The position numbers were made by a program, and so were the translations under genes. The notes under the pieces are model-generated. The model saw nothing but the letters and a program-made list of their open reading frames with translations, was not told the origin of the DNA and did not search any database. Positions 2,996 through 27,435 of a stretch of 32,978 bases of DNA are shown here, one piece after another; position 1 is the stretch's first letter, and each line of letters begins with the position of its first letter. This DNA is from Phycisphaerales bacterium (GTDB lineage: Bacteria; Planctomycetota; Phycisphaerae; WQYP01). The stretch spans positions 1 to 32,978 of the forward strand of contig DAHVEJ010000024.1 in NCBI GenBank assembly GCA_027313145.1, read 5' to 3'.

Positions 2996-5548
2996 ATGTC
3001 TTCAATTCACAAGTTTGTTGTTGTGCCGGCGGTGCCGGAAAAACTCGCGGCGCTGCACGAGTTGGCCTACAATCTCTGGTCGTTATGGAATTATGAAGCG
3101 GCAAGTTTATTTAATCGATTGGACCCGGATTTATGGGAAACCACCGGGCATAATCCGGTACGACTGCTGAATCTCATCGGTCAGGATAAACTGCGCGCCG
3201 CCGCGGAAGATGAAGGATTTCTGTCGCATCTCAATCGCATAACGTCGGACCTGAAATCCTATATGCAGCAAAACACCTGGTTTAAACAGCGCTATCCGGA
3301 TCGCAAGCCCGTGATCGCGTATTTTTCGGCGGAGTTCGGGCTGCATGAATCGCTGCCGATTTACTCCGGCGGCCTGGGAGTGCTTTCCGGCGACCATCTC
3401 AAAAGCGCCAGCGATCTGGGCATTCCGCTGGTCGCAGTCGGGCTGCTGTACCGTGAGGGTTATTTCCATCAACAGTTGAATGCCGATGGCTGGCAACAGG
3501 AATTGAACCCGGAAAATGATTTTTTCTCCATGAGTATTACCCAGGTGAAAAATCAGGAAGGACAACAAGCGGTTATCACCGTGGATTACCCGGACTCGCA
3601 AGTTCGCGCCGCGGTCTGGCGGGTGCAGGTGGGCCGGGTAACGCTGTACCTGATGGATTGTAATCTGGAAATTAACAGCCCGCATAATCGGGACATTACC
3701 GCACGGCTTTACGGCGGCGATCACGAAATGCGCATCCGGCAGGAAATTATGCTGGGTATTGGCGGTTTGCGGGCCTTGGCGGCGGCGGGCATTACCCCAA
3801 CGGTATGCCACATGAATGAAGGGCATTCGGCCTTTCTGGCGCTGGAACGCTGCCGCGTGCTGATGGAACAGGAAAAGCTAACCTTTGCCGAAGCGCGGGA
3901 AATGGTTGCCGCCAGCAACGTATTTACCACGCATACGCCGGTTCCAGCCGGCAATGACGCCTTTCATCGTGATTTAATTGAAAAATATTTCACCAACTAT
4001 TGCCATAAACTCGGTATCAGCATTGATGAACTCATGGCCATGGGACGGGTGAATCCGCAGGACAGCAACGAATTTTTCGGCGTAACCGTGCTGGCGTTAC
4101 GCATGGCGTGGCATGCCAACGGTGTCAGTGAGTTGCATGGGCAGGTATCGCGACGCATGTGGCAGCGGATTTGGCCCGAAATTCCCGCTCCGGAAATTCC
4201 GATTCGCCACATTACCAATGGCGTGCATACGCAGTCCTGGTTAAGTGAAGGCTTCGCGCGGCTCTATCAGGAATTTCTGGGCGCTAACTGGACGGAGCGC
4301 CCGGCCGATCACAGCATTTGGGGACGCACTGATAAAATCCCGGATGTTGAAATATGGCGCGTTCATGAACGCCGCAAGGAACGCCTGATACATTTCGCGC
4401 GCCAGCGGCTGGCCATGCAGCTTGCGCGGCGCGGTCAATCCGCGCTGGATATTCAACGCGTGGACGAAGTGCTGGATTCAAAATCATTAATCATCGGCTT
4501 TGCGCGGCGCTTTGCCACCTACAAACGCGCGACGCTGCTTTTGCGCAATCCGGATCGCTTAATTAAACTTCTTAAAGATTCCAATCAGCCGGTGCAGTTT
4601 GTTTTTGCGGGCAAGGCCCATCCGCGCGATGACGGCGGAAAGCGCTTTATTCAGGAAATCATTCATTTCTGTCGGCGGGAAGATGTTCGCACGCGTATGG
4701 TGTTTCTGGAAGATTATGATATTGATGTCGCGCGGTATCTTACGCAGGGTGTGGATGTATGGCTTAATACGCCCCGTCGGCCCATGGAGGCTTCCGGCAC
4801 CAGTGGCATGAAAGCCGCCATTAACGGAGCGTTGAATTTAAGTATTCTGGATGGTTGGTGGTGTGAGGCGTCGGCCGAGGATAATGGCTTTGCCATTGGT
4901 GCCGGCGAAGATTACAACAACGATGAATATCAGGATGAAGTCGAAAGCCGGAAACTTTTTGATCTTCTGGAACGCGTGGTTGTGCCGCTGTACTACGACC
5001 GCAGCCTTGACGGCCTGCCGCGAAACTGGATCAAACGGATGAAAAATTCCATTCGCACGATCTGCCCGGTGTACAATACCAATCGCATGGTGCAGAATTA
5101 TTCGGAAATGTTCTACCTGCCCGCGCATGATCTGTATATGAAACTCATGGAGGGCCACGGTGCCGGCGCTGCGGCATTGGCCCAATGGAAAAAACGCATC
5201 GCCCAGCTATGGGATCAGGTGAAGGTAACGCACGTGGAATCTCCGTGTGCCGGCACGGTAAAAGCCGGTGAAAGCGTCAAAGTATTTGCCACCGTTGAAT
5301 TAGGCAGCATCCCCGTAGATAACGTGCGGGTGGAACTTTATTTTGGTCCACTGGATGCGTTCGGCAATATTCAGGATGCCCGTGTGCATGAAATGGCGCT
5401 AAGCACAAATATTGGATCTGGAGTGTTTCAATTTGTGGGTGCCATCAGCGCCGGAGCCTGCGGTCAGCAGGGCTACGCCGTTCGGGTATTGCCCAATCAT
5501 CCCAATATCGCTCTGCGGTTTGAACCGGGATTGGTACGCTGGGGATAA
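2996..5548 (+). CDS. glgP: Alpha-glucan (glycogen/maltodextrin) phosphorylase, DUF3417-containing type
   Basis: This 850-residue enzyme releases glucose-1-phosphate from alpha-1,4-glucans using pyridoxal phosphate. The N-terminal ~110 residues (LHELAYNLWSLWNYEAASLF, then LWETTGHNPVRLL) are the DUF3417 region found in the Thermus/mycobacterial-type alpha-glucan phosphorylases. The catalytic body has AYFSAEFGLHESLPIYSGGL, VCHMNEGHSAF, ITNGVH, FARRFATYKRA and the PLP site EASGTSGMK, whose lysine is residue 606. The C-terminal ~130 residues form a beta-rich extension (HVESPCAGTVKAGESVKV) usual for this subfamily. The start at 2996 has GAAGGAG 8 nt upstream. The gene stands alone, with its own promoter and structured leader. 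The length is normal for the family and no defect is visible. Confidence 0.97.
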   Translation: MSSIHKFVVVPAVPEKLAALHELAYNLWSLWNYEAASLFNRLDPDLWETTGHNPVRLLNLIGQDKLRAAAEDEGFLSHLNRITSDLKSYMQQNTWFKQRYPDRKPVIAYFSAEFGLHESLPIYSGGLGVLSGDHLKSASDLGIPLVAVGLLYREGYFHQQLNADGWQQELNPENDFFSMSITQVKNQEGQQAVITVDYPDSQVRAAVWRVQVGRVTLYLMDCNLEINSPHNRDITARLYGGDHEMRIRQEIMLGIGGLRALAAAGITPTVCHMNEGHSAFLALERCRVLMEQEKLTFAEAREMVAASNVFTTHTPVPAGNDAFHRDLIEKYFTNYCHKLGISIDELMAMGRVNPQDSNEFFGVTVLALRMAWHANGVSELHGQVSRRMWQRIWPEIPAPEIPIRHITNGVHTQSWLSEGFARLYQEFLGANWTERPADHSIWGRTDKIPDVEIWRVHERRKERLIHFARQRLAMQLARRGQSALDIQRVDEVLDSKSLIIGFARRFATYKRATLLLRNPDRLIKLLKDSNQPVQFVFAGKAHPRDDGGKRFIQEIIHFCRREDVRTRMVFLEDYDIDVARYLTQGVDVWLNTPRRPMEASGTSGMKAAINGALNLSILDGWWCEASAEDNGFAIGAGEDYNNDEYQDEVESRKLFDLLERVVVPLYYDRSLDGLPRNWIKRMKNSIRTICPVYNTNRMVQNYSEMFYLPAHDLYMKLMEGHGAGAAALAQWKKRIAQLWDQVKVTHVESPCAGTVKAGESVKVFATVELGSIPVDNVRVELYFGPLDAFGNIQDARVHEMALSTNIGSGVFQFVGAISAGACGQQGYAVRVLPNHPNIALRFEPGLVRWG

Positions 5549-5564
5549 GCGGTACCTCGGCGAT

Positions 5565-5609
5565 TGGAATCTGGAACCTGGAACCAAGAAACTGGAATTT
5601 TCTGGAATC
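5565..5609 (+). repeat. Degenerate 7-bp tandem repeat after glgP
   Basis: TGGAATC, TGGAACC, TGGAACC, AAGAAAC and TGGAATT follow each other in strict 7-bp phase from 5565, and a final TGGAATC follows after 3 bp. It sits in the short gap between the convergent glgP and flippase-like genes. No coding role is apparent. Confidence 0.6.
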
Positions 5610-5679
5610 GCTTCGCTGCTAATGTGCAGGCGTGACAGAGAGCCAGTGCCGTGTCAGGGTACCCTGCGGTTTATCTCAT

Positions 5680-6975
5680 TTACGCTTCGGGTGCCAATTC
5701 ATCGAGGCTTTCCACCTGCTGGCGATGGTAGGTTCCCCGCACCACCCAATAGGCTCCCAGCAGATTCCAGCAGATCGGCAGGAAACGAATGGCTTGGGCC
5801 AACGCAAAGGCCTGACTGGCGGTATCGACGCCGCGCGCAACAAAAAAGTGCAGCAAAATGGCATCCATCACGCCGATGCCCTGTGGCGGAACAATCGGCA
5901 AACTCGCCGCCAGGGCCGCCACCGGAATGCACGCCATAAAGTAACCGAATGATGCGTGCATCCCAAAGGCCCGACCCGCTAAGAACCCCGCCAGCGGCAG
6001 TACCGCCTGCGACACTACACTGGCTGCCAGCGTCACCGCGACCACACCCGGATGGTCACGATACACCCGCAGCGTGCGATCCGCGTGTTTGATAAATTCC
6101 GGCAATGGCAGGCGTTCAATCAACGCATCAAGATGTAGAAGTTTCCGCAAGCGGGCCGAAAAATAAACAATTCCGCCCGCCAGCGTCAGGCCCAGCAGGC
6201 CGGTAATCAGCCACAGCACATGCACCAAAACCGGGTCAGAGACGCTCTTGCCGGAAACGGAAAAATGATTCGCCGCAAGCTGCGCCGCCGCCGCTACGCC
6301 GGCCACAATCATCAAACCAATTAAACCGATGACCCGATCCAGAATCACCGTGACCGCACTTTTCGTTTTTTGCCCGGTGATGCGGCCGGTGTAAATAATT
6401 TTGACAATATCCCCGCTGGTGGTCCCGGGAAGAAAGGTGGAATAAAACTGCCCCACAAATGTCAGGGTCAAACATTTCAGGTAGGGCAAATTCATGCCCT
6501 GCACCAGCATGAGTTGCCGCCAGCGCCACGCGGTAATGACAAAGGGCAATCCCAGCAGCAACAATGCCGCCAGCAAAGGCAGCGGCTTAGCCCGCCCCAG
6601 CAGATGCGGCAGCCCCAGGGCCACCGATACTTTTCCGTGCACCGCCACCAGATAACTGCCCGGCACCGCCAGAAGTTTAGGGAATTTGATCGGTGCCTTC
6701 GTGGCCCGGCCCGTTACCATCTGCCCGTGCGGCAGACGGACAGTCACCTTCTGGCCTTGAAATTGCAGCGTATACAGGGTGCCGCGCCGCGCTAAAAGCG
6801 GCAGCGGCGTGTTGTGCAGAAACGTCACATTGCGGATGACCTGTCCTTTTCTGATCACCGCCTGATCATGCCATGCGATATGGGAAATCACATACCAAAG
6901 TCCCACAACCGCAATCAGAATTTTGATCACGGTAATGGCCACTTTGCGCGCGGTGTGCGGTTTTGTCTGGGTCAT
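5680..6975 (-). CDS. Flippase-like membrane protein (lysylphosphatidylglycerol synthase TM / UPF0104 family)
   Basis: This is a 431-residue polytopic inner-membrane protein. The first span is at about residues 12-32. A largely soluble insert of about 90 residues follows, probably periplasmic, then a run of hydrophobic segments from about residue 135 to the end. Hallmarks of the family are WRWRQLMLVQGM, VGQFYSTFLPGTTSGDIVKI and the AVTVILDRVIGLIGLM stretch. The MprF flippase domain and many uncharacterised lipid-translocation proteins share this fold; no soluble aminoacyl-transferase domain is present, so it is not a full MprF. It starts 30 bp after pyrE on the same strand and is probably co-transcribed with it. 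Its own ribosome-binding site is weak, which also suggests dependence on pyrE. The substrate is unknown. Confidence 0.85.
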   Translation of the reverse strand: MTQTKPHTARKVAITVIKILIAVVGLWYVISHIAWHDQAVIRKGQVIRNVTFLHNTPLPLLARRGTLYTLQFQGQKVTVRLPHGQMVTGRATKAPIKFPKLLAVPGSYLVAVHGKVSVALGLPHLLGRAKPLPLLAALLLLGLPFVITAWRWRQLMLVQGMNLPYLKCLTLTFVGQFYSTFLPGTTSGDIVKIIYTGRITGQKTKSAVTVILDRVIGLIGLMIVAGVAAAAQLAANHFSVSGKSVSDPVLVHVLWLITGLLGLTLAGGIVYFSARLRKLLHLDALIERLPLPEFIKHADRTLRVYRDHPGVVAVTLAASVVSQAVLPLAGFLAGRAFGMHASFGYFMACIPVAALAASLPIVPPQGIGVMDAILLHFFVARGVDTASQAFALAQAIRFLPICWNLLGAYWVVRGTYHRQQVESLDELAPEA

Positions 6976-13692: not shown

Positions 13693-13786
13693 CGTGACCG
13701 CGTGCGGAAATAAAAGCGGAGAGGCAGAAAATACGGGTAGGAACCGCCATCGAATCGGTATTGTTTGCAGCGGTCCAGTTGAAAGC

Positions 13787-14134
13787 CGGGATAATCGCAT
13801 TACTACGACATTGCTTGGAGATAACACTTTTGGAAATTATATTTATAATTCCATGAATCACCGGGGCAGGGGTCAGAATGTCGGATTCGGGGACGATCAT
13901 GTTTCATGGAATACCAATCCGTATTGCGGCGCCCACCATGACAATATTTTCACATATTATCGTCATGAGTACACCAGCCATGGCGATTCCGCGGCTGCTC
14001 CGCAGGCGGGCTTAAGCGAATTGGGCAATGCCGCCGCGGTGCCGACAATCCTCGGCTCCAAGCCCGATTATGACATTTGCATGGTTCCGGTGCGCAACGG
14101 CAGTCAGTACGGCAAAAAAATGCGAAGGTGGTGA
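13787..14134 (+). pseudogene. 3' fragment of an H-X9/10-DG pseudopilin gene
   Basis: The translated segment TTTLLGDNTFGNYIYNS, then NHRGRGQNVGFGDDHVSW, PYCG-HHDNIFTY, APQAGL and ICMVPVRN runs parallel to the last ~115 residues of the intact pseudopilin encoded at 20719-21759. The pilin signal, the hydrophobic helix and the central domain are absent. In the signature, the DG pair has become DD. The frame is open back to 13694, but the ~30 codons before the match have no counterpart. It lies immediately after the DUF6493-like gene. It is best read as a gene remnant exposed by insertion or deletion rather than a working protein. Confidence 0.75.
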
Positions 14135-14586: not shown

Positions 14587-14627
14587 AGTGGAACCGTGAA
14601 AGCGGGTAAAATGGACGTGGATCAGTG

Positions 14628-16919
14628 ATGATGCAGAAGACCAATAATTTCGTTGGCGACAAGCCACTTGTTCCGGATGGGTTTGAAGCAATCGTCTCGG
14701 AGCATATCGGCTGGGCTTATCACATGGCCCGCCGACAGCTTGCCGATGCCGGCCTTGCCGAAGATGCGGTGCAGGCCGTTCTTTTGGCGTTGTGGCAAAG
14801 GCGAAAACGCCTTGAGGCGCAAAACCGATCCATCGGCGGCTGGCTGGTGCGCGCAACATATTTTATTTGCAGCCAAATGCGCAAATCCGAAGCCCGGCGA
14901 CGAAGCCGCGAAGGGAAGGCAATTGTCACGCGAATTCAAGAAGCAGATGTTCCTGCCGAGGCCGCAGGCTCCAACATCTTACAACTCGCGGCTATGGACG
15001 CGGCAATGCAAAAGCTTTCCAAGGGGGATCGAGCGTTGCTGGTGGCGCGATTTTTTCAGAATCGTACCGCCCGGGAAGTGGCACAGCAGTTCAATATTTC
15101 CGAAGCAGCGGCGGCTAAGCGCACGGCGCGTGCGGTGGAACAAATGCGGAACATAATGACGCGACAGCGTTTGACATTAGATAGCACCGCGATGATGGCC
15201 CTGCTCGCTGGCGGGGCCAGCACGGCACCGGATGGATTAGCATCGCAAGTTCTCCACGCCATTGCGGGCCAGGGGCCGTTAAGCGCCTGCGCCGCCCGTG
15301 CCGCACAAAGCATATCGTTTCGCGCAGGGCGTGCTCCGGCGTTTCTTGGCGCGTCCGCAGCGCTGGTGGGCGTGGCTGCAGTAACTATTCCCCTGGTGGT
15401 AAAAACGCCGCAAAGGGCTGCGGTGCCAATCCCCGCTGCTGCGAGCGCAACCCATCGCTCAGTACATATTCCCAGCGCCCACGCCGCGCCGCACATCACC
15501 GGGCCATTAACCAAAAATGGCTACGTCAATTACGTGGCGAAGTTTAACAAGCGATTCGGCCAAGGCGTCACCGCGTTGAATAATGCTGCGGTGCCGCTGG
15601 TAATTCTATTTCGGCCGGACTCGTTTCGAGACTCCACTACCAAAGTAGTGGCTGGAAAATTCATCAACGTGCCGGACAAAACCTTCGCGCGCAAATTACG
15701 CAGATCACTGGGAATTTCCAAGCGTGATATAACGGGACCGCGCTTTGTCAGCTACCAGAAGTTCCGCAGACACGCCGATCCGGCGGCAGTGGCACAGGGC
15801 CTTGGCTTGGCCGGTAATTTACCGCCTGCGCCGCAGTACACCCCGGCAGGGCTTTACAGGCACCCGTGGTCGGCCAGGACCAACCCATGGACGGCTGCAT
15901 TCTTAAACACCAATGCCGGGGCCTTGGATATCGCACGGTCAGCATTCTCCCGTCCACACTTTTTTCTGCCACTGGTTGAACCCGCCGGTGGCGACCACAG
16001 TATGGCCACCGCAGTAGGTTCGATACTCCCGGCCCTTGCTCCCGCCAAGGCTATTTGCAACGGACTTGTGGCACAAGCCATGCTGGCATTGCACCAGGGC
16101 CGCCTGCGGAGGTGTCAGCAAGATTTGCTGGCCGTCCATCGGCTGGCCCGGTTACTAACCCGTGAACACTTCCTGATCACCAACCTTGTAGCTGTTTCCA
16201 TTGAGATGATGGGGTGTCAGGCGGATATTGCTATGGCCAATTCCCACAAGCTGTCATCGACAGCATTGCGCAACTACCTGAATCAGCTGTTGAAGCTTCC
16301 CCGGCCCACGTCGGTGGCGGCTGTGATTAATACCGGTGAGCGATGGACAACGCTTGACGTCTTGCAGCACGCTTCGCCTAACCTCGCCGCACTCTTCGGA
16401 TTTGCCGCGCCGCGCAAGCCGGCCAAACCCTTGAACGGAGCACAGCGTGCGGCAGCATTGGCGTCCATGAACAGGCTCTTTGACCAAGTGGTTAAAATTT
16501 TTGCGATCAAGAACTACCGGCAGCGAGCCTTGGCGTCGCACCATGCACTGGCTCTTTGGCAACATGCAAAAAAGCCGGTAGACATAACATTCCTCTTCAT
16601 TGTAAAGACGCAGGCCAGAACCATTGCCATGTCAGCCCGGTGCGCCGCCTTTCGGCGCTTAGATCGCCTGTCCCTTGCCCTGGCCGCGTATTTGGAAGCT
16701 CACCAAGTATTTCCCCCTCGCCTTTCCCAACTTGTCCCCAAATTTCTGCCCGCCATTCCACAGGATCCCTACACCAATAAGCCGTTTGCCTACGCCACCG
16801 GACCACAAGGCTGCACGCTCTTTAGTCCCGGAGGATATTCGCCGCCGATAAACACCGGCGTAACACTTCCCCCCGCGCGCCCTATTACGGTACATCTGTC
16901 CTCGTCGCCGGGAATTTGA
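14628..16919 (+). CDS. ECF sigma factor fused to membrane span and extracytoplasmic domain (fusion 1, subfamily I)
   Basis: This protein has 763 residues. Sigma region 2 covers about residues 20-90 (HIGWAYHMARRQLADAGLAEDAVQAVLLAL, IGGWLVRATYF), and region 4 about 125-178 (DRALLVARFFQNRTAREVAQQFNISEAAAAKRTARAV). A single membrane span lies near 238-259. About 500 residues then face outward, starting with ITGPLTKNGYVNYV and NNAAVPLV and ending with FPPRLSQLVPKFLPAIPQDPYTNKPFAY. No separate anti-sigma gene is present, so the C-terminal half may hold or sense for the sigma domain. ATG 14628 is chosen; GTG 14625 is in frame. A five-codon ORF at 14611 ends in a TGATG overlap. The last few codons and the stop lie inside repeat copy C. 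Its outer domain resembles that of fusion 2. Confidence 0.85.
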   Translation: MMQKTNNFVGDKPLVPDGFEAIVSEHIGWAYHMARRQLADAGLAEDAVQAVLLALWQRRKRLEAQNRSIGGWLVRATYFICSQMRKSEARRRSREGKAIVTRIQEADVPAEAAGSNILQLAAMDAAMQKLSKGDRALLVARFFQNRTAREVAQQFNISEAAAAKRTARAVEQMRNIMTRQRLTLDSTAMMALLAGGASTAPDGLASQVLHAIAGQGPLSACAARAAQSISFRAGRAPAFLGASAALVGVAAVTIPLVVKTPQRAAVPIPAAASATHRSVHIPSAHAAPHITGPLTKNGYVNYVAKFNKRFGQGVTALNNAAVPLVILFRPDSFRDSTTKVVAGKFINVPDKTFARKLRRSLGISKRDITGPRFVSYQKFRRHADPAAVAQGLGLAGNLPPAPQYTPAGLYRHPWSARTNPWTAAFLNTNAGALDIARSAFSRPHFFLPLVEPAGGDHSMATAVGSILPALAPAKAICNGLVAQAMLALHQGRLRRCQQDLLAVHRLARLLTREHFLITNLVAVSIEMMGCQADIAMANSHKLSSTALRNYLNQLLKLPRPTSVAAVINTGERWTTLDVLQHASPNLAALFGFAAPRKPAKPLNGAQRAAALASMNRLFDQVVKIFAIKNYRQRALASHHALALWQHAKKPVDITFLFIVKTQARTIAMSARCAAFRRLDRLSLALAAYLEAHQVFPPRLSQLVPKFLPAIPQDPYTNKPFAYATGPQGCTLFSPGGYSPPINTGVTLPPARPITVHLSSSPGI

Positions 16920-17224: not shown

Positions 17225-19624
17225 TCACGGAAATGGCCCCTTCTGCCATTTCCGTGGTGGTGGCGGCGGCATGATGATGCGTGACGGGCCAAAATTCGGG
17301 GGTACCCACCCCGAATGCAGGTACGCTTCGGATAGGGCCAGTGCGTACCCGTCGCTGGTCCTGATATAGACGAGGGCCATTCCAGTGAACGGGTCCATGG
17401 GTGGGTGCTTGAAGAACGCTGGTGACAAGGCCGCAAGCGTCGCGGGATAATGGCCGTGTGCGTTGCGGTACATCTCAAGGGCATACGCGATTTTGACCAG
17501 CGTAAGATACCGCATTACGCCATAGGTGCCGGGCACCTCGCCAGAAACTACGTAATTGGTGGCCAGCAGCACCACGTTGTGATATCGGATATTTAATGGC
17601 AATCTCTTCGCCAAGAGATGCTCCAGCGATGCCGGAATATCGCCCGCCGCCCCGGGATTCCACCCTCCAAGCACGTCGATGTAGTGGCTGGCACGGTGCC
17701 AAACATCTTCAGTTGCCCGCAGCCGCAGGCCCGCATTTGAATACACCGGCGCACGAGCCAGCGCCCGCAGCCTGGCGAATGTTCTATTAAGATTTGCGAA
17801 CTGCCAGTTCCAATCAATTCCCGGCGGCGGATGTTCGATGATATCCGTCGGTAATGTTGGTTGGGATAGCGTTCGGGCCAGCGGTTGAAGCGGCGGAATC
17901 TGCGGATGTCGATAACACGAAAGCAGCACCCCAAGAGCCTGCAGGCGGGACGTATGGATATAGCGTTGCCTTAACGGCGGTGGCAACCTGAGGGCGTGGA
18001 TAACCTTCCACACCCGTGCCAGGAGCCTTGGATGTCCTCGAAGCTGTCCCAGCAACGTGCGGTCAACATACAACGATATACGCAACAGCACGTCGCCGGC
18101 GTAACCGCTGATTCCGTCCGGCGCTTGGTATGCCAATTCCGCAAGCCGGGTCACGGCCATCGCGTCGCTCCAGCATTTGTCCGGATAACCGCGCCCCAAC
18201 TCCAGCGTGGCGTGGCAGGCTAGGCACAGGCCGGCGGTGGTGAGGACGTACCTCGTTGGCAAACACCAAGCCATCGGCCCCTTAAGGCGTCTTGTATAGG
18301 GGGCGCTTGGCAAGTAGAACCGCGGGAGAAGGGAAGCTTTCCGCAGAAGTTCCGTTGCCGCCTTGTTCTGTTGCATTGCCGTGGCTAAGAGAAAGCACTG
18401 CGAACTGCGCCAGGGAGAATCAAGCGCATATCCCACCTCAAACTGTTTCATCGCAAAGTACGCCGGGCCGCCCTCGAACACGGTTTTCGTTCTTGGGAGC
18501 TTATATCCCTGCGGCGGATGTTTCTTGAAATACTGGCCGATTTTGTCGATCCGCGGAATTCTATTTCTTGGCGGCGTTACGCCCAGCAACTTGAGCTGGT
18601 AAGCACCCATCTCCCGGTAGTGAATTTCCGGTCCGCCTCCCCACTCATGAAACCCCTGCATCGCGATCTCAATCGCCGGCACAGCCGCATTATTTTCCGG
18701 TGTCACGCCCTTCATTAGATATTCTTTTAACGCCAGCTTGTAATCCGGCAGGCCATTCTTGCCCAACGGGCTGGTGATATAGGTTGTCGCGCGGCTGATG
18801 ATTAATTTTTGCGGGGCTTTTGGGCGGTTGTGCCCGGCCAGTGCCACCGCGATTCCGGCGGCCACCAGTGCGGTTGCCAGAACGGCACCCGTGGCGGCGA
18901 GTGCGGTTTTTCCGCTGGCCAGACCTTTGACCGACATGTGCGCCAACATTTTGGTCTGGCCAGCACTTGTAACTGTGGCCGTTGTGCCGTGTGCGGCGTG
19001 GGCCAATATGACTGCAGTGAGTTTTTCCGGCGCGGCCTGCACGAGTTTGTCTGCCAATATTGCCGTCAGTGCTTCTGACGTTAGCGGCATCTGCCTGCGG
19101 GTCATACGTGATCGCAATTTCTCTACCGCCCGTTGCACACGCTTTTTTGCCGCTTCGTCACTGATGCCCAGAACATCTCCCACTTCCCGCAGGCTGCGGC
19201 GTTCGTAATATCGCAACAGGAGTGCTGTGCGATCGGCTTGGCTTAAGCGGGCGAGCTGTTCGTCCAAAAGCGGTATTAATTCTTCATCGCGCATGGGGGC
19301 CTCCACTGCAACCGCATCGGGCCGCATTCGAGCTGCGGCCCGTTCGTGCCGTCGCCGCGTATTGTCATTCCGCAACGCCCGATTGCAGCAATGCCGGGCC
19401 GTCTTAAAAAGCCACCCGGAGATATTGGCCTCCTGCGGAATGCGCCCTGATTTTTTAAGCAGGGCCATAAATACGCACTGTGTAACATCTTCCGCCAAGG
19501 CGGGATCGCGCACAGACCGCAGGCACAGGCAATAGACCCAATCCAAATGCCGCCGGGTTAATTGCGGCATTTGTGCTTGAGCCGTGGCGTGGCCCACTTC
19601 CGGAATTGTCTGGCCGTCATTCAT
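17225..19624 (-). CDS. ECF sigma factor fused to membrane span and extracytoplasmic domain (fusion 2, subfamily II)
   Basis: This protein has 799 residues. Region 2 is at about residues 20-92 (LTRRHLDWVYCLCLRSVRD, LAEDVTQCVFMALL, ISGWLFKTARHCCNRAL) and region 4 at about 115-175 (DRTALLLRYYERRSLREVGDVLGISDEAAKKRVQRAVEKL). One span lies near 243-263. The outer part starts YITSPLGKNGLPDYKLALKEY and NNAAVPAIE and closes with HYPATLAALSPAFFKHPPMDPFTGMALVY, paralleling fusion 1 although the sigma halves belong to different subfamilies. ATG 19624 has AAAGGAG 9 nt upstream. It is convergent with fusion gene 1. No anti-sigma gene is adjacent. The signal sensed is unknown. Confidence 0.85.
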   Translation of the reverse strand: MNDGQTIPEVGHATAQAQMPQLTRRHLDWVYCLCLRSVRDPALAEDVTQCVFMALLKKSGRIPQEANISGWLFKTARHCCNRALRNDNTRRRHERAAARMRPDAVAVEAPMRDEELIPLLDEQLARLSQADRTALLLRYYERRSLREVGDVLGISDEAAKKRVQRAVEKLRSRMTRRQMPLTSEALTAILADKLVQAAPEKLTAVILAHAAHGTTATVTSAGQTKMLAHMSVKGLASGKTALAATGAVLATALVAAGIAVALAGHNRPKAPQKLIISRATTYITSPLGKNGLPDYKLALKEYLMKGVTPENNAAVPAIEIAMQGFHEWGGGPEIHYREMGAYQLKLLGVTPPRNRIPRIDKIGQYFKKHPPQGYKLPRTKTVFEGGPAYFAMKQFEVGYALDSPWRSSQCFLLATAMQQNKAATELLRKASLLPRFYLPSAPYTRRLKGPMAWCLPTRYVLTTAGLCLACHATLELGRGYPDKCWSDAMAVTRLAELAYQAPDGISGYAGDVLLRISLYVDRTLLGQLRGHPRLLARVWKVIHALRLPPPLRQRYIHTSRLQALGVLLSCYRHPQIPPLQPLARTLSQPTLPTDIIEHPPPGIDWNWQFANLNRTFARLRALARAPVYSNAGLRLRATEDVWHRASHYIDVLGGWNPGAAGDIPASLEHLLAKRLPLNIRYHNVVLLATNYVVSGEVPGTYGVMRYLTLVKIAYALEMYRNAHGHYPATLAALSPAFFKHPPMDPFTGMALVYIRTSDGYALALSEAYLHSGWVPPNFGPSRIIMPPPPPRKWQKGPFP

Positions 19625-20718: not shown

Positions 20719-21759
20719 TCACCAGCAGCCCGTGGCCACATCACGTATCGGTGCCATGCAGGTGTCGTAGGGAACCGTGTTGTACAAACTTGGAATAAAC
20801 AACACGGGACTTGCGTCGCCGCAGGTCAGACCGGCCTGCGGCGCATCAATCGAGGCCCCGAAACCCGAATACGCGGTGGTGTCATACGTGAAAATATTGT
20901 CATGGTTCATGCCGCAATAAGGTGTGGTCTCCCATACCACATGGCCATCGGCGAAGCCGACATTCTGCCCGTCGCCGTTATGGTTGCCGGAATTGTAGAC
21001 ATAATTTCCATACGTGTTGCCGGGCAGCAATGTGGTGTTGCGGTAGGTTCGCCCCAGTGTCGGCGCGCCCAGATCGTCCGGTGCCATATCGCTGATGATG
21101 GGCACTTGAGATCCGGCCCGGCTATTCCACCATGCACCGGCCTGCATGGGGATAACATTGTTCGGATCTGGCGGTGCGGCCAGCCATGGATAGGCGATGG
21201 AATAACTTTCACCCCGGCCCAGATTGCTCAGGGGCTGATGATCGGTGAGGTTGCCAAAATTTCCGAAAGCGTATTGGCCCGTTCCCGCGGTGCTGCCATA
21301 AAGCAGCGACGGGCCGTCGGCGAATGGATCGGAGGGGCAAATAAACCCCGCCGGCGTTTCATATTGCATCAACACCAGCAGCCACAGGCAACCGATGACT
21401 GAACCGGTGCTGGGCTGGTACACAACCGCGCCATCGTTGAGGTTAAACCAGTCATTGACAACCTGCTGGACGGACTGCCCGATCGCATAATGTCCCGGCG
21501 GTACGGAAGTATTGATAAACAAACCACCAAATTCACCGGGCGTGGCGGGAAACTCGTCGTTGCTGCTGGCGGCGTAGGCCAGCATGGATTGAGCGATGCC
21601 GTGGATGTTGGCCGAGCAGGCCACGCGATTCGCCTGTTCCCGGGCCGCCGCCAGAGCCGGCAACAGCAGGCCGATCAGAATCGCAATAATTCCAATGACT
21701 ACCAGTAACTCTATGAGTGTCATTCCCCGCCCGGCGTTTTGTGTATTGGACATGTCCAT
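20719..21759 (-). CDS. H-X9/10-DG type II pseudopilin
   Basis: This 346-residue prepilin-like protein is of the planctomycete DUF1559/H-X9-DG group. The class III signal is RGMTLIELLVVIG, with cleavage expected between Gly12 and Met13, Glu at +5, and the hydrophobic helix following directly. The C-terminal signature reads NHNGDGQNVGFADGHVVW, one residue longer than the canonical H-X9-DG. The start at ATG 21759 is chosen because GGAGG lies 9 nt upstream; the open frame reaches back to 21852 without a better site. Such proteins are exported and processed by a prepilin peptidase; pilus or secretion genes are not in this window. A broken paralogue lies at 13787-14134. A sigma-fusion type promoter motif is found 269 nt upstream. 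Confidence 0.88.
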   Translation of the reverse strand: MDMSNTQNAGRGMTLIELLVVIGIIAILIGLLLPALAAAREQANRVACSANIHGIAQSMLAYAASSNDEFPATPGEFGGLFINTSVPPGHYAIGQSVQQVVNDWFNLNDGAVVYQPSTGSVIGCLWLLVLMQYETPAGFICPSDPFADGPSLLYGSTAGTGQYAFGNFGNLTDHQPLSNLGRGESYSIAYPWLAAPPDPNNVIPMQAGAWWNSRAGSQVPIISDMAPDDLGAPTLGRTYRNTTLLPGNTYGNYVYNSGNHNGDGQNVGFADGHVVWETTPYCGMNHDNIFTYDTTAYSGFGASIDAPQAGLTCGDASPVLFIPSLYNTVPYDTCMAPIRDVATGCW

Positions 21760-21912
21760 GTCGAAAAACCTCCGTGCCATGGGGCGACTTCGCATAGCAG
21801 CTTCAGTTGTGAATACGCACGCCATTATATCTGCCATTTCTTTACCATGCACCGAGTCGCAGCGTGTCGTAATGCCCGCAGGAGCGGCAGTGGCGTCGCC
21901 CGCGGTTGCGAG

Positions 21913-22382: not shown

Positions 22383-22424
22383 ATTGAGGAATCCTCGAGG
22401 ATGTTACATGGAGGCAGACCAATC

Positions 22425-24413
22425 ATGACGCAACACAAAGATAATCACAACGGCGATGCCCCATTTGATCCGGATAACTTTGAAAAAGTGATTTTGACAC
22501 ATGCTGGTTGGGTCTACCACATGGCTCGCCGAGAGCTTGCCGATGCCAGCCTCGCCGATGATGCCGTGCAGGCGATATTTCAAGCCCTGCGGCAAAGACG
22601 CAAGCATGTGCCAGCCAGAAATCGCCACATCGGCGGCTGGCTGGTACGGGCTACGCATTATGTTTGCCGCGAAATGAACAGGTGCGAACTTCGGCGTCAA
22701 TGTCGTGAAAGGAAGGCGGCTATCATGCGAACTCACGAGCCGGATATTTCCCCGGAAACATCACCGTCTAATTCCGCGCAACTTGCGGCCTTGGATGCAG
22801 CCATGCAAAAACTTTGCGTTGGCGACCGTAATATGCTGGTGGCGCGGTTTTTCCAGAACCGTACCGCAGAGGAGGCGGCGCAGGAGTTCAATATATCCGA
22901 AGCGGCGGCGGCTAAGCGCACCGCCCGTGCCGTGGGAAAATTGCGCGGGATCATGGCGGGGCAAAATCTCCCGCTAGATAACAGTGCCGACATGGCATTA
23001 CTGGCCGGCGGTGCCGGAAATGCACCAAATGGGTTGATACCCGAAGTCCTGCGTGCTCTTGCCGGTCACGCGCAGTCAAGCCTCGGTGCCGAATGCGCCG
23101 CACGAAGGGGGTTATTTCATGCGGCGCGTGTGCCAGCCATTTTCGGTGTGCGAGCGGCGGCGGTGATGGCTGTGGCCGCTGTCATATTGCCAGGGGTACT
23201 GAGATTGCCAGGAGCATTATCAGCATCGACCCCGGCTCAGGTTGCACCACCGCCCCGAAAGCATCCCACAATCCCCCTGCCCGCTGGTATAGTGCTCTCG
23301 CCGCAGGGCAAGCCTGTGCCACGCGTGAACGTCTTTCTGGCGAACCGAAACACATGGGCACTGTTTTGCGGACTCAATACCCCGCCAGTGCCCCCTCCAA
23401 AGTTTCCCGCATTTTTTCGATCTGCGGGAGGCCGGCCCTTCGCCGCTATCAAGAGCACGACCACTGACAGTGACGGCAATTTTATTTTTCCTCCACAAAA
23501 ACGGAACTATCTTCTAATAGTCGATTGCTTGCAGGGGTTTGCCGAGATTCCAGCCGCCAGTCTTGGGGCTCAGCCAGTGCAAATTGCATTGCAACCATGG
23601 TGCCAGGTGGACGTCAACATCAAGTTACCGACAGCTCCCGGTATCACATATGGCGTGGGTGCCAATCCGTTCCAGAACAGGGCTTTTCCCAGTGTTAACT
23701 TCAGTTGTGGTTTTTTCCAGACCAGGCCCGGTCACTTCACGTGTTCTGACATTCCAGGAGTTGGAGGCCTGCAGGTTTACGCAGGAAGATATAAAGACGG
23801 TAAGGCCGCCCGCAACTTCTTTTATCGAACTACCGTCATTTTTTTGCAGCCAGGTCAGCATGCCAAAGTGAACTTCGGCGGCACCGGTTGTCCGGTGGCT
23901 GGAAAAATTGTGCTGCCTGCGAGCTTGAAAAGCCGTCCTGCCCCTTCACAATACGTCAAAGCGAGACTGGTGCTGCCGACAATTCCTTATCCCCAACGCT
24001 GGTTCCATTTAAACCATGCCGGGAAAATCAATTGGCTGGTCCAGTGGTTTCGGACGCCTGCCGGACATATATACCAAAGTGCGGCGTTATCCTCTTTCAT
24101 TGCGAAAATTCACAGCAATGGTTTATTCAGAATGGCCGCCATCCCACCTGGCAATTACCATCTCCAATATCTTAGCACCGGCCTAGGTCAGGGCCAGAGC
24201 GTCAACTGGCCGGCTCCGCTTGCCGCCACAGCTTTCCTTGACGAGCCTTTCACCGTTCCCAATCCGCCGGGCGGATTTTCCGGCGAAGCGGTGGATTTGG
24301 GCAAGCTTGAACCAGCGCTAATCCGCAATCTACAAGTTGGCGATATTGCACCGCCATTTGCCCTGCGGACCGCCGACGGTTCAGTAATCAGATTGTCTGA
24401 TTTCAAAGGTTAA
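22425..24413 (+). CDS. ECF sigma factor fused to membrane span and carboxypeptidase-regulatory-like domain (fusion 3, subfamily I), truncated
   Basis: This reading frame has 662 residues. Region 2 is at about residues 18-88 (HAGWVYHMARRELADASLADDAVQAIFQAL, IGGWLVRATHYV), closely like fusion 1, and region 4 is at about 122-178 (DRNMLVARFFQNRTAEEAAQEFNISEAAAAKRTARAV). One span lies near 230-252. A beta-sandwich-like segment starting GIVLSPQGKPVPRVNVFLAN resembles the carboxypeptidase regulatory domain. The protein ends at LQVGDIAPPFALRTADG and SDFKG, the opening of a TlpA/AhpC-type redoxin domain. An in-frame TAA at 24411-24413 replaces the usual lysine codon. ATG 22425 is chosen because GGAGG lies 10 nt upstream; ATG 22401 is in frame. 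The sigma half appears intact. Confidence 0.82.
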   Translation: MTQHKDNHNGDAPFDPDNFEKVILTHAGWVYHMARRELADASLADDAVQAIFQALRQRRKHVPARNRHIGGWLVRATHYVCREMNRCELRRQCRERKAAIMRTHEPDISPETSPSNSAQLAALDAAMQKLCVGDRNMLVARFFQNRTAEEAAQEFNISEAAAAKRTARAVGKLRGIMAGQNLPLDNSADMALLAGGAGNAPNGLIPEVLRALAGHAQSSLGAECAARRGLFHAARVPAIFGVRAAAVMAVAAVILPGVLRLPGALSASTPAQVAPPPRKHPTIPLPAGIVLSPQGKPVPRVNVFLANRNTWALFCGLNTPPVPPPKFPAFFRSAGGRPFAAIKSTTTDSDGNFIFPPQKRNYLLIVDCLQGFAEIPAASLGAQPVQIALQPWCQVDVNIKLPTAPGITYGVGANPFQNRAFPSVNFSCGFFQTRPGHFTCSDIPGVGGLQVYAGRYKDGKAARNFFYRTTVIFLQPGQHAKVNFGGTGCPVAGKIVLPASLKSRPAPSQYVKARLVLPTIPYPQRWFHLNHAGKINWLVQWFRTPAGHIYQSAALSSFIAKIHSNGLFRMAAIPPGNYHLQYLSTGLGQGQSVNWPAPLAATAFLDEPFTVPNPPGGFSGEAVDLGKLEPALIRNLQVGDIAPPFALRTADGSVIRLSDFKG

Positions 24414-24818
24414 GTTGTTTTACTCTATCTTTGGGATTGGCCGGGAATTATCTGGCATGATTTGGTAAATCCACAGTTACCCACACTGCGTCTAACGGAA
24501 ATGCCGGAACTTTTGCGGATACACAAAAAATTTGGCAAGAACCCCAATTTCGTGATGATTTCCGTCGCGACGGATAACGACCGTCAGTTAGTCCGGCAGT
24601 ACCTGGATGCTGCGGAAATTCCCTGGCTGCAAGCGATGACACCCATTCATAATCGACGTTCAATTTTAGACGACTATAGCTACAAGTCGTTTACGAATTT
24701 TTCGTCCGTCAGTTCCGTGATATATCTGATCGGTTCCGATGGCAAAATAGCCGCGCGAAATCCGCAGGGGAAGCAAATCATCGCGGCCGTAGCAAAGGCT
24801 CTTGCGGCAAACCGGTAA
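24414..24818 (+). pseudogene. Severed redoxin domain of sigma fusion gene 3
   Basis: The frame of fusion gene 3 continues directly after its TAA for 134 codons. It reads VVLLYLWDWPG, then VMISVATDNDRQLVRQYLDAAEIPW and a final YLIGSDGKIAARNPQG, the order of a TlpA-like thioredoxin fold. The WCxxC that should follow YLW is replaced by WDWPGII, so both redox cysteines are lost. An internal ATG at 24501 has no ribosome-binding site. It ends at TAA 24816-24818, 10 bp from the convergent stop of fusion gene 4; AACAC-CGGA-GTGTT (24817-24830) is a tiny shared hairpin. Confidence 0.75.
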
Positions 24819-24828
24819 CACCGGAGTG

Positions 24829-27414
24829 TTATCTATGCACTAATCCGATTACCGGGATGCGCATTTTTTCCAGGTGGCCGCTGTACGTGTACCAAACGGT
24901 AACATGAGAAAATATCGCTGCGGCACCCGCCGCGGGCTTGATCACCACATCCATACTTTTCTGCGACCAGCGGGAGACGGCCACGGATCGGCTACCCGGT
25001 TTAATCATATCCACCACGGCACTGCCGCCCAGAGGGCGCAGGAATTGCAGTGTGATGGAAAAACTCTGCCGGGCGGCGAAATTACGGGGATTCAAAATAA
25101 TGCTCCCCGGTTGGGCACCCAGCGCCGGCGAGGGTAGGAAGAAAACCGGCACGGTGGTGGATAACTTGCGCTGCGACGGCGGAGCGCGGCGGCCTTTAAG
25201 TGATAGATAAAAGCAGTACGGCCGGTCGCCGGGTGGTTTCTTCATGGTGACACGAATCTTCTGCGATCCGCCGGGGAAAAGGGTGAAAGCTGGCGGGGAA
25301 ACAGTCACTGCATTGTCCTGTGGACGCAGTTGAAAATCCGCCAGTTTGCCGGCGGTATTTTTGATTGAAAATACGGCAGAAAGTCGGTGGATTGCCTTGG
25401 GCGGTACAAACCGCTCGATTACCCATCCAGGCATGGCAAACCCCTTGAGGTGGGCTGTCGGGACCACTCCGAGTACCAATTTTTCGGGGGCAAAAGGCGT
25501 TGGGGCCGTGTCGTATTCGACGCGGTGCACGTGGTCCCAGACATCCGATGGAAACGGCAGCGTGGACACGAACGTTCCGGGTGAAAATTTCGGATCAACG
25601 CTCAGTCGTGTGATCGCTACCCGATCCTCGAAGCTGAGATGCCGCCGCTTTGCAGGAGAACCGGACCATAATCGCTCGCGAATGAACCTCGGGAACCAGA
25701 TGCCGTGATTTCTCACGAAAATTGAAAATGCGTTTTGCCAGTCTGGTACTTTGCCCTGCGGACCAACCAAAACGCTGGACTCCCGATACACGCGCAGCCC
25801 CCCGACCAATTTTACGTCATACCGGATTTCTTGCACCCACTTATTACCCCCGGGATTGGTGATTTTAAGCGGATTTCCACCCTGAACCTCCGCGTAAACC
25901 AGTTTCACGTGGCCATTACCTGGATCGGTTTTCTGGCTGATCAACCGGTAGTGGAGTGGCCCCTTACCAGGCGGGAATTTTCTAAACCATCCGTTTTTAC
26001 GCCACCCGGCAGGTTCATAGAGAAACGGCGTCTTAAATTGCGTCCATAGGCTTTCTAGGCTTTGCATCTCCGGGTTGGAAAACTGAACGCCGTTCCACGC
26101 CGACCGCCAATCTGACCCGGATTTGCCTTGGCGATTATACAGGTCCACCCGCCATTCGCGGCCGGGTCCACCACCGTCAGGATACGCACTCCATACCTTC
26201 TTCCGGCCGATCACCCATACTTGAACATGGGCATTTGGATCGGGCGTTCCATCGGGCAGGTAATATAGTCCCGTGTTTACGCTGGTGAGATTGACCAGCC
26301 TCCCCGATACGTCCCATTTTAGATTTGCCGCCTCGGTTTGGGTGTGCCAGCCGGGCGTTTCCCCCACCATCGCTTGCCGCAAATGCTTCGGGTCACTTTT
26401 CTGTATGATCGCCCGCAAATTACGTATCTCCCGTCCGCTGATATAATAGCGTGTCACGAATGTCGCCCGCACGCTTAGTGCCCGAATTTCCCGCGCGTAC
26501 GCCTGAAACACCGCCGCCCATTGGGCTTGCGTCAGCATGGGCGGTTTGGCGGTAGCGGCAAGGGCTGGGGCAACGGGCGCAGACGGCGGAATCGCAGCAA
26601 TTTTTGGCGGCAGGGGTGCGGGGCGATTGGGGATTGCTAGCACCACCGCCACGCCCGTGGCAACCAGTCCCGCCACCAACAAAACCGCCGCAGTTCCGAT
26701 CGCAACTTTGCCGCCGGCTGTTTTCATTGCCAGTTTTGCCAATAGTTTTTTCTGCCCCGCTGACAATGCCATTGCCGCGGCCCCGTGGGTCGCATGTGCC
26801 AGCACTGCTGCCGCAAGTTTCGCTGGGGCCGGTTGCACGATTTTTTCAGTCAAAATGGCTATCAGAGCGTCTGCACCCAGCGGTACGCCGCTTGCCGCCA
26901 TGCGCGCACGGAGTTTTTCCACCGCACGCCGCACCCGCTTTTTTGCCGCTTCTTCACTGATGTCCAAGTGCATGCCGACCTCGGCAAAACTACACCGCTG
27001 GTAATAGCGCAGCAGCACCGCAGCCCGATCCGACTCGCCCAAAGCTGCAAGGTGTTCGTCCAGCAGCGGTAGAAGTTCCTCTTCCGGGTTTGGCACATCC
27101 GGTACTGATTCAGGTGCCTTGGCTGCCGCCAATTCATGCCGCCGCCGAGTGTGTTCATCGCGCAGCGCACAACGGCAACAGTAGCGCGCGGTGTTAAACA
27201 ACCAGCCCGACATGTTGACCCCCTGCGGCAAATGCTTCGCTTTTTTTATCAGGACCATGAATACTGTTTGCGTAACATCCTCAGCCAGCGCGGCATCACG
27301 CACGGACCGCCGGCACAAGGAATAAACCCAATCCAGATGCTTCCGAACCAATAACGGCAATTCCCCGCCGCCCTTTTGGACCGCAGACACCAGCATCTCG
27401 CGCTGATCATTCAT
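24829..27414 (-). CDS. ECF sigma factor fused to membrane span and extracytoplasmic domain (fusion 4, subfamily II)
   Basis: This protein has 861 residues. Region 2 is at about residues 20-92 (VRKHLDWVYSLCRRSVRD, LAEDVTQTVFMVLI, MSGWLFNTARYCCRCAL) and region 4 at about 115-172 (DRAAVLLRYYQRCSFAEVGMHLDISEEAAKKRVRRAVEKL), both close to fusion 2. A span lies near 236-260, then a proline-rich linker. The outer domain differs from that of fusion 2. A segment around LSVRATFVTRYYISGREI could adopt a LolA-like fold, and the last ~200 residues (SAVFSIKNTAGKLADFQLRP, FTLFPGGSQKIRVTMKKP) look like Ig-type DUF1573/ASH modules. The TTG at 27417 is in frame, but ATG 27414 with CGGAG 8 nt upstream is preferred. 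No anti-sigma gene is adjacent. Confidence 0.84.
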   Translation of the reverse strand: MNDQREMLVSAVQKGGGELPLLVRKHLDWVYSLCRRSVRDAALAEDVTQTVFMVLIKKAKHLPQGVNMSGWLFNTARYCCRCALRDEHTRRRHELAAAKAPESVPDVPNPEEELLPLLDEHLAALGESDRAAVLLRYYQRCSFAEVGMHLDISEEAAKKRVRRAVEKLRARMAASGVPLGADALIAILTEKIVQPAPAKLAAAVLAHATHGAAAMALSAGQKKLLAKLAMKTAGGKVAIGTAAVLLVAGLVATGVAVVLAIPNRPAPLPPKIAAIPPSAPVAPALAATAKPPMLTQAQWAAVFQAYAREIRALSVRATFVTRYYISGREIRNLRAIIQKSDPKHLRQAMVGETPGWHTQTEAANLKWDVSGRLVNLTSVNTGLYYLPDGTPDPNAHVQVWVIGRKKVWSAYPDGGGPGREWRVDLYNRQGKSGSDWRSAWNGVQFSNPEMQSLESLWTQFKTPFLYEPAGWRKNGWFRKFPPGKGPLHYRLISQKTDPGNGHVKLVYAEVQGGNPLKITNPGGNKWVQEIRYDVKLVGGLRVYRESSVLVGPQGKVPDWQNAFSIFVRNHGIWFPRFIRERLWSGSPAKRRHLSFEDRVAITRLSVDPKFSPGTFVSTLPFPSDVWDHVHRVEYDTAPTPFAPEKLVLGVVPTAHLKGFAMPGWVIERFVPPKAIHRLSAVFSIKNTAGKLADFQLRPQDNAVTVSPPAFTLFPGGSQKIRVTMKKPPGDRPYCFYLSLKGRRAPPSQRKLSTTVPVFFLPSPALGAQPGSIILNPRNFAARQSFSITLQFLRPLGGSAVVDMIKPGSRSVAVSRWSQKSMDVVIKPAAGAAAIFSHVTVWYTYSGHLEKMRIPVIGLVHR

Positions 27415-27435
27415 CAAAGCAACTCCGTTCTTATA

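Follow-up and report, generated by a model that had tools for sequence, protein, structure and literature searches.

A probable recent nonsense mutation in a membrane-anchored ECF sigma-fusion paralogue of a planctomycete

The window, i.e., the whole stretch of 32,978 nucleotides that was analysed (contig C166; the genome has 335 contigs and is 93% complete), includes a gene at 22401–24818, called sigma fusion 3, whose reading frame is interrupted by an in-frame TAA codon at 24411–24413. In this planctomycete, the gene is one paralogue of a family of membrane-anchored ECF sigma fusions with fast turnover; its stop probably arose by a recent nonsense mutation, and the copy would be in the course of being lost. 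A full-length orthologue without a stop occurs in the genus-mate G006 (JAJZVR010000016.1; 78% identity over residues 3–805).

The interrupted frame and its domains

The frame opened at ATG 22401 meets the premature TAA and is then open for another 134 codons up to a second TAA at 24816–24818, just as the preliminary description had read it. It reads VGDIAPPFALRTADG...SDFKG upstream of the premature TAA and VVLLYLWDWPGII downstream of it. All features described for this gene are on the forward strand. The truncated ORF (22401–24413) specifies an ECF-type sigma factor, a predicted membrane helix, a CarboxypepD_reg-like region and the first 25 residues of a redoxin domain, while the relict (24414–24818) consists of the C-terminal 134 codons and the original stop. 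Annotation of the gene as two ORFs would mislead. Translation may start at ATG 22425 instead of ATG 22401; the Met at residue 9 of the window ORF is common to G006 and to the orthologue in a second genome, G004. A weak terminator-like hairpin of five pairs is located at the original stop (24812–24824); counting both strands, there were three such sites, with 0.8 to be expected from shuffled sequences.

The N-terminal part belongs to the ECF-type sigma-70 factors (TIGR02937: 52.5 bits versus 42.9), with region 2 at 22494–22676 (residues 32–92; PF04542: 27.3 bits, cut-off 24) and region 4 at 22803–22946 (residues 135–182; PF04545 and PF08281, both above the cut-off). The membrane helix is predicted at 23130–23186 (residues 244–262), where the 19-residue Kyte–Doolittle mean peaks at 2.15; in G006, the peak is at the same place (2.34). 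The CarboxypepD_reg-like stretch (23451–23525) scores 29.8–30.8 bits with PF13620, under the cut-off of 32.3, which the G006 orthologue surpasses with 36.1 bits. The interrupted redoxin domain (24336–24815), which is ResA/AhpC-TSA-like, scores 27.9 bits with PF00578 (cut-off 26) when the stop is read as X.

PMC8999054 reviews ECF sigma factors that carry transmembrane and extracytoplasmic extensions at the C-terminus: ECF48, ECF52 and ECF53, SCO4117 and IutY. As in those factors, the sigma domains of the window protein precede a single predicted membrane helix and a large C-terminal portion; the transmembrane helix expected behind the sigma domains of a membrane-bound, IutY/ECF52-like sigma/anti-sigma hybrid is present, as a prediction. 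It differs in that its extension is CarboxypepD_reg-like plus redoxin, and Pfam gave no hit up to E 1 for an anti-sigma (zinc-finger/ZAS) domain. In a limited search of open-access literature, including passages from PMC8999054 and PMC8103513, we found no description of redoxin extensions on ECF sigma factors.

Orthologues, the redoxin domain and sigma region 2

Sigma fusion 3 is present in three of the eight genomes of the genus, including that of the window. The G004 orthologue is 94% identical and ends with its contig at residue 441, short of the stop site, and consequently the comparison at that site rests on G006, the one orthologue that covers it. Among named records, the planctomycete MAGs JAJZVR010000016.1 and JAKATV010000143.1 are nearest. 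No match covering both the sigma and the C-terminal parts was found in the other genomes (28 searched in the family), and a wider scan of contigs yielded no orthologue beyond G006 and G004.

In G006, the frame runs through the stop site (KVVLLYLWDWPAIAWHD), with GGG AAG GTT facing GGT TAA GTT in the window. Because the G006 orthologue continues there, with 79% identity over the 134 codons past the stop, the open frame beyond the TAA is not a product of chance. The AAG codon supports nonsense truncation of the redoxin domain. The preliminary description had proposed that one A-to-T change in a lysine codon AAA accounts for the stop; lysine is indeed what the orthologue specifies, but with AAG, and a single A-to-T change holds only if the ancestor of the window copy had AAA, two changes being needed from AAG.

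In sequence terms, the domain remains a redoxin in G006: PF00578 gives 26.5 bits (cut-off 26) for the module, and a search of the PDB matched the domain best to a thioredoxin-family protein and to thiol-disulfide oxidoreductases, ResA among them (E 4e-6 to about 1e-3). An AlphaFold2 model of the C-terminal module from a two-row alignment had a mean pLDDT of 29.8 and was set aside. Although the fold family is that of the ResA-type thiol-disulfide oxidoreductases and AhpC-TSA redoxins, the CxxC active site of the catalytic (ResA/TlpA-like) enzymes is missing from the window (WDWPGII), as had been noticed before, and equally from the intact G006 orthologue (WDWPAIAWHD); the fusion's domain also lacks the Pro of the paralogues' I/F-P motif. 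Three of the five free-standing paralogues keep WCGPC or WCEFC (WATWCGPC, WASWCGPC or WASWCEFC in C197 and C192 of the window's genome and G024 C37). The preliminary description had left it undecided whether redox function was lost before or after truncation. The loss itself stands and can now be placed before the stop, since G006, with its uninterrupted frame, is without CxxC as well.

Two free-standing redoxins, in G023 C2 and G024 C11, are also without CxxC (WDVWSDSS and WDVVRGPG, respectively), with Asp following Trp in both. They pair at 100/100, apart from the window–G006 pair, in a tree of seven sequences with one long end branch, which suggests that CxxC was lost separately in these free-standing copies and in the sigma fusion.

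In region 2 of its sigma domain, the window copy has undergone two radical replacements, Leu61 to Gln and Trp64 to Arg, at conserved hydrophobic positions of the ECF-type sigma-70 factors. Among 25 distinct homologues (29 loci, minus three repeats and one without coverage), position 61 is hydrophobic in all, and position 64 is Trp in 18 and otherwise Ile, Leu, Ala, Met or Glu, never Arg. G004 retains Leu61 and Trp64; both changes arose in the window lineage once it had separated from G004. The window scores are the lowest of the three orthologues for region 2 (27.3 bits, with 29.4 in G004 and 32.2 in G006) and region 4_2 (26.3, 34.5 and 30.3 bits, respectively), yet still above the Pfam cut-offs. 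Gln61 and Arg64 suggest that the whole copy, rather than its tail alone, is losing function.

Age of the stop and competing explanations

There is no signal of decay past the stop in the comparison of the window with G006. The dN/dS ratio is 0.306 before the stop (bootstrap 0.24–0.40) and 0.307 after it (0.15–0.54). With paralogues as the outgroup, the amino-acid changes after the stop fall four times on the window branch and eight times on the G006 branch (16 unresolved), and those before it, within the module, four and nine times, respectively (18 unresolved). It follows that the stop is recent, unless it is erroneous or read through. In a recent pseudogene, one expects a stop absent from the orthologue and a constrained region downstream; both are found here, with one orthologue. 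Between the window and G004, dN/dS for sigma fusion 3 is 0.45; its wide interval (0.24–0.91) overlaps the 0.36 of the window–G006 comparison, and hence it does not show relaxed selection. The G004 contig is of low coverage (cov 1.8) and its own changes may include errors. For the same two genomes, the ratio is 0.016 in the pyruvate carboxylase gene and 0.09 (0–0.36) over 202 codons of the neighbouring fusion 4. The changes on the window branch are nine nonsynonymous to seven synonymous, versus about 3:1 under neutrality, by which sigma fusion 3 was still constrained for most of that branch's time.

Were the stop an assembly or sequencing error, the organism would have a sense codon at 24411–24413 and make the full fusion. 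In favour of this, constraint past the stop is as strong as in the rest of the gene, and the contig comes from a fragmented genome (335 contigs). However, of the 3438 bases of the pyruvate carboxylase gene on the window contig, 20 differ from those of the near-identical species G004, and 19 of these differences are synonymous; random errors would be mostly nonsynonymous, so errors are rare on this contig. Gln61 and Arg64 are two more damaging changes in the same gene. An error, which the preliminary description had listed as an alternative, is accordingly unlikely. Programmed readthrough or a reassigned TAA, yielding the full-length protein, would also maintain constraint past the stop, but G006 has the sense codon AAG, such that the stop is not conserved between species; TAA ends seven of the 15 listed genes of the window, the truncated ORF included, and is a normal stop here; and the sequence downstream of the stop has no RNA structure, folding no better than its shuffles (z 0.46). 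According to PMC5289835, highly expressed genes favour UAA as their stop, and replacement of UGA by UAA lowers readthrough; both points speak against readthrough at 24411–24413. Readthrough, also raised in the preliminary description, gains no support from these observations and is highly improbable. We give equally little credence to a split gene in which translation restarts beyond the stop to make a separate redoxin: in-frame starts are available, the first of them TTG 24462 and ATG 24501, but these two lie inside the domain, past its first strands and the active-site position, and by eye, no well-spaced ribosome-binding site precedes TTG 24462, while a GGA is too near ATG 24501.

The stop might instead have removed a sensor domain that was already redox-dead, leaving a working, perhaps less regulated, sigma factor. 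The sigma regions and the membrane helix stay open, the former with scores above the cut-offs, and the lost domain is without CxxC even in the intact orthologue. Nevertheless, the helix and about 400 further residues remain in the truncated protein, which implies that the sigma part is not released; Gln61 and Arg64 fall on conserved positions of region 2; and the lost domain is constrained in the comparison with G006. Such functional truncation appears quite improbable. Still more doubtful is a broader version of the idea, where in the intact family a sigma factor would be wired to an extracytoplasmic redoxin fold without its catalytic cysteines, serving purely as a sensor or binding domain, and the window species would have shed that sensor by the stop, with the sigma factor now running alone.

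The stop is most likely explained by an ordinary nonsense mutation that arose recently in a fast-evolving paralogue which the organism can do without. The intact form would have been as in G006, where a sigma domain and a membrane helix precede a carboxypeptidase-regulatory-like region and a redoxin fold already without CxxC. In the window species, a Lys codon would then have become TAA, and ribosomes would halt past the first strands of the redoxin domain, the remainder being a relict. We infer that a real mutation to the stop has been fixed, that the truncated protein does not fold properly or does not function, and that the genome is in the process of losing this gene.

Turnover in the sigma-fusion family

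Nonsense pseudogenes occur in expanded bacterial paralogue families. The present case resembles them in its single in-frame stop, its intact orthologue elsewhere and the broken or missing copies in its neighbourhood, and there is no difference of note: here, the stop would be recent and affects the last 134 codons alone.

Three more sigma fusions flank the gene (window positions 14625–16919, 17225–19624 and 24829–27417). All have sigma regions 2 and 4 above the Pfam cut-off, and their C-terminal parts are unlike that of sigma fusion 3. Upstream of the pyruvate carboxylase gene, fusion 4 is present in G004. None of fusions 1–4 occurs in the corresponding stretches inspected in G001 (19.5 kb), G002 (two contigs, 5.7 and 13.4 kb), G003 (9.2 kb) and G006 (2.4 kb). 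In G006 contig C174, a 43-residue remnant of the fusion 4 C-terminus (locus L046, 14940–15068; 74% identity) comes after the intact orthologue of fusion 3; fusion 4 has apparently been lost at that place. The same locus includes two tandem ORFs (3344–5035 and 5059–6732) that have the C-terminal domain of fusion 1 behind near-identical new N-termini, without a sigma domain. Within the window, the translation of 13694–14134 resembles the C-terminal part of a pseudopilin-like ORF on the opposite strand (20719–21852; NYIYNS.NH...GQNVGF...DNIFTY), and is perhaps another gene remnant.

Single in-frame stops within the sigma domain were seen in two further loci, a TGA in L024 (G003 C196) at query residue 136 and a TAG in L057 (G009 C103) at query residue 39. 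Internal stops consequently occur in three of 34 sigma-bearing matches (E up to 1e-10, five free-standing redoxins left out), namely the window gene and these two, versus none in 48 control matches (25 rows for pyruvate carboxylase and 23 for phosphorylase). The control omits one more full-length row for phosphorylase and short pieces of true orthologues, none of which has a stop, as well as lower-identity paralogue rows, three of which have stops (G020 C113, G024 C40 and G026 C525); judged from coordinates, the latter fall where the match overruns the usual end of the roughly 452-residue protein. Counted by codons, the chance that all three stops fall in the sigma set is 0.004, or 0.021 when the window gene is left out, a post hoc calculation on small numbers. 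An in-frame TAA in C302 was rejected as a sign of a broken copy, being, by its coordinates, the gene's own natural stop, overrun by the alignment. Short sigma genes at L025 (G005 C39), L045 (G004 C95) and L015 (G000 C18) have region 2 in common; in the first two, the frame hits stops near query residues 137–149. A codon-usage scan for further split frames over 208,690 bases of the same genome returned 268 stops flanked on either side by 60 open codons, amongst which true splits were not separable from antisense shadows.

Of more interest than the stop itself is the redox-dead redoxin that the intact orthologue joins to a sigma factor. The stop would mark a single step in how planctomycete sigma-fusion paralogues turn over, and its importance is modest.
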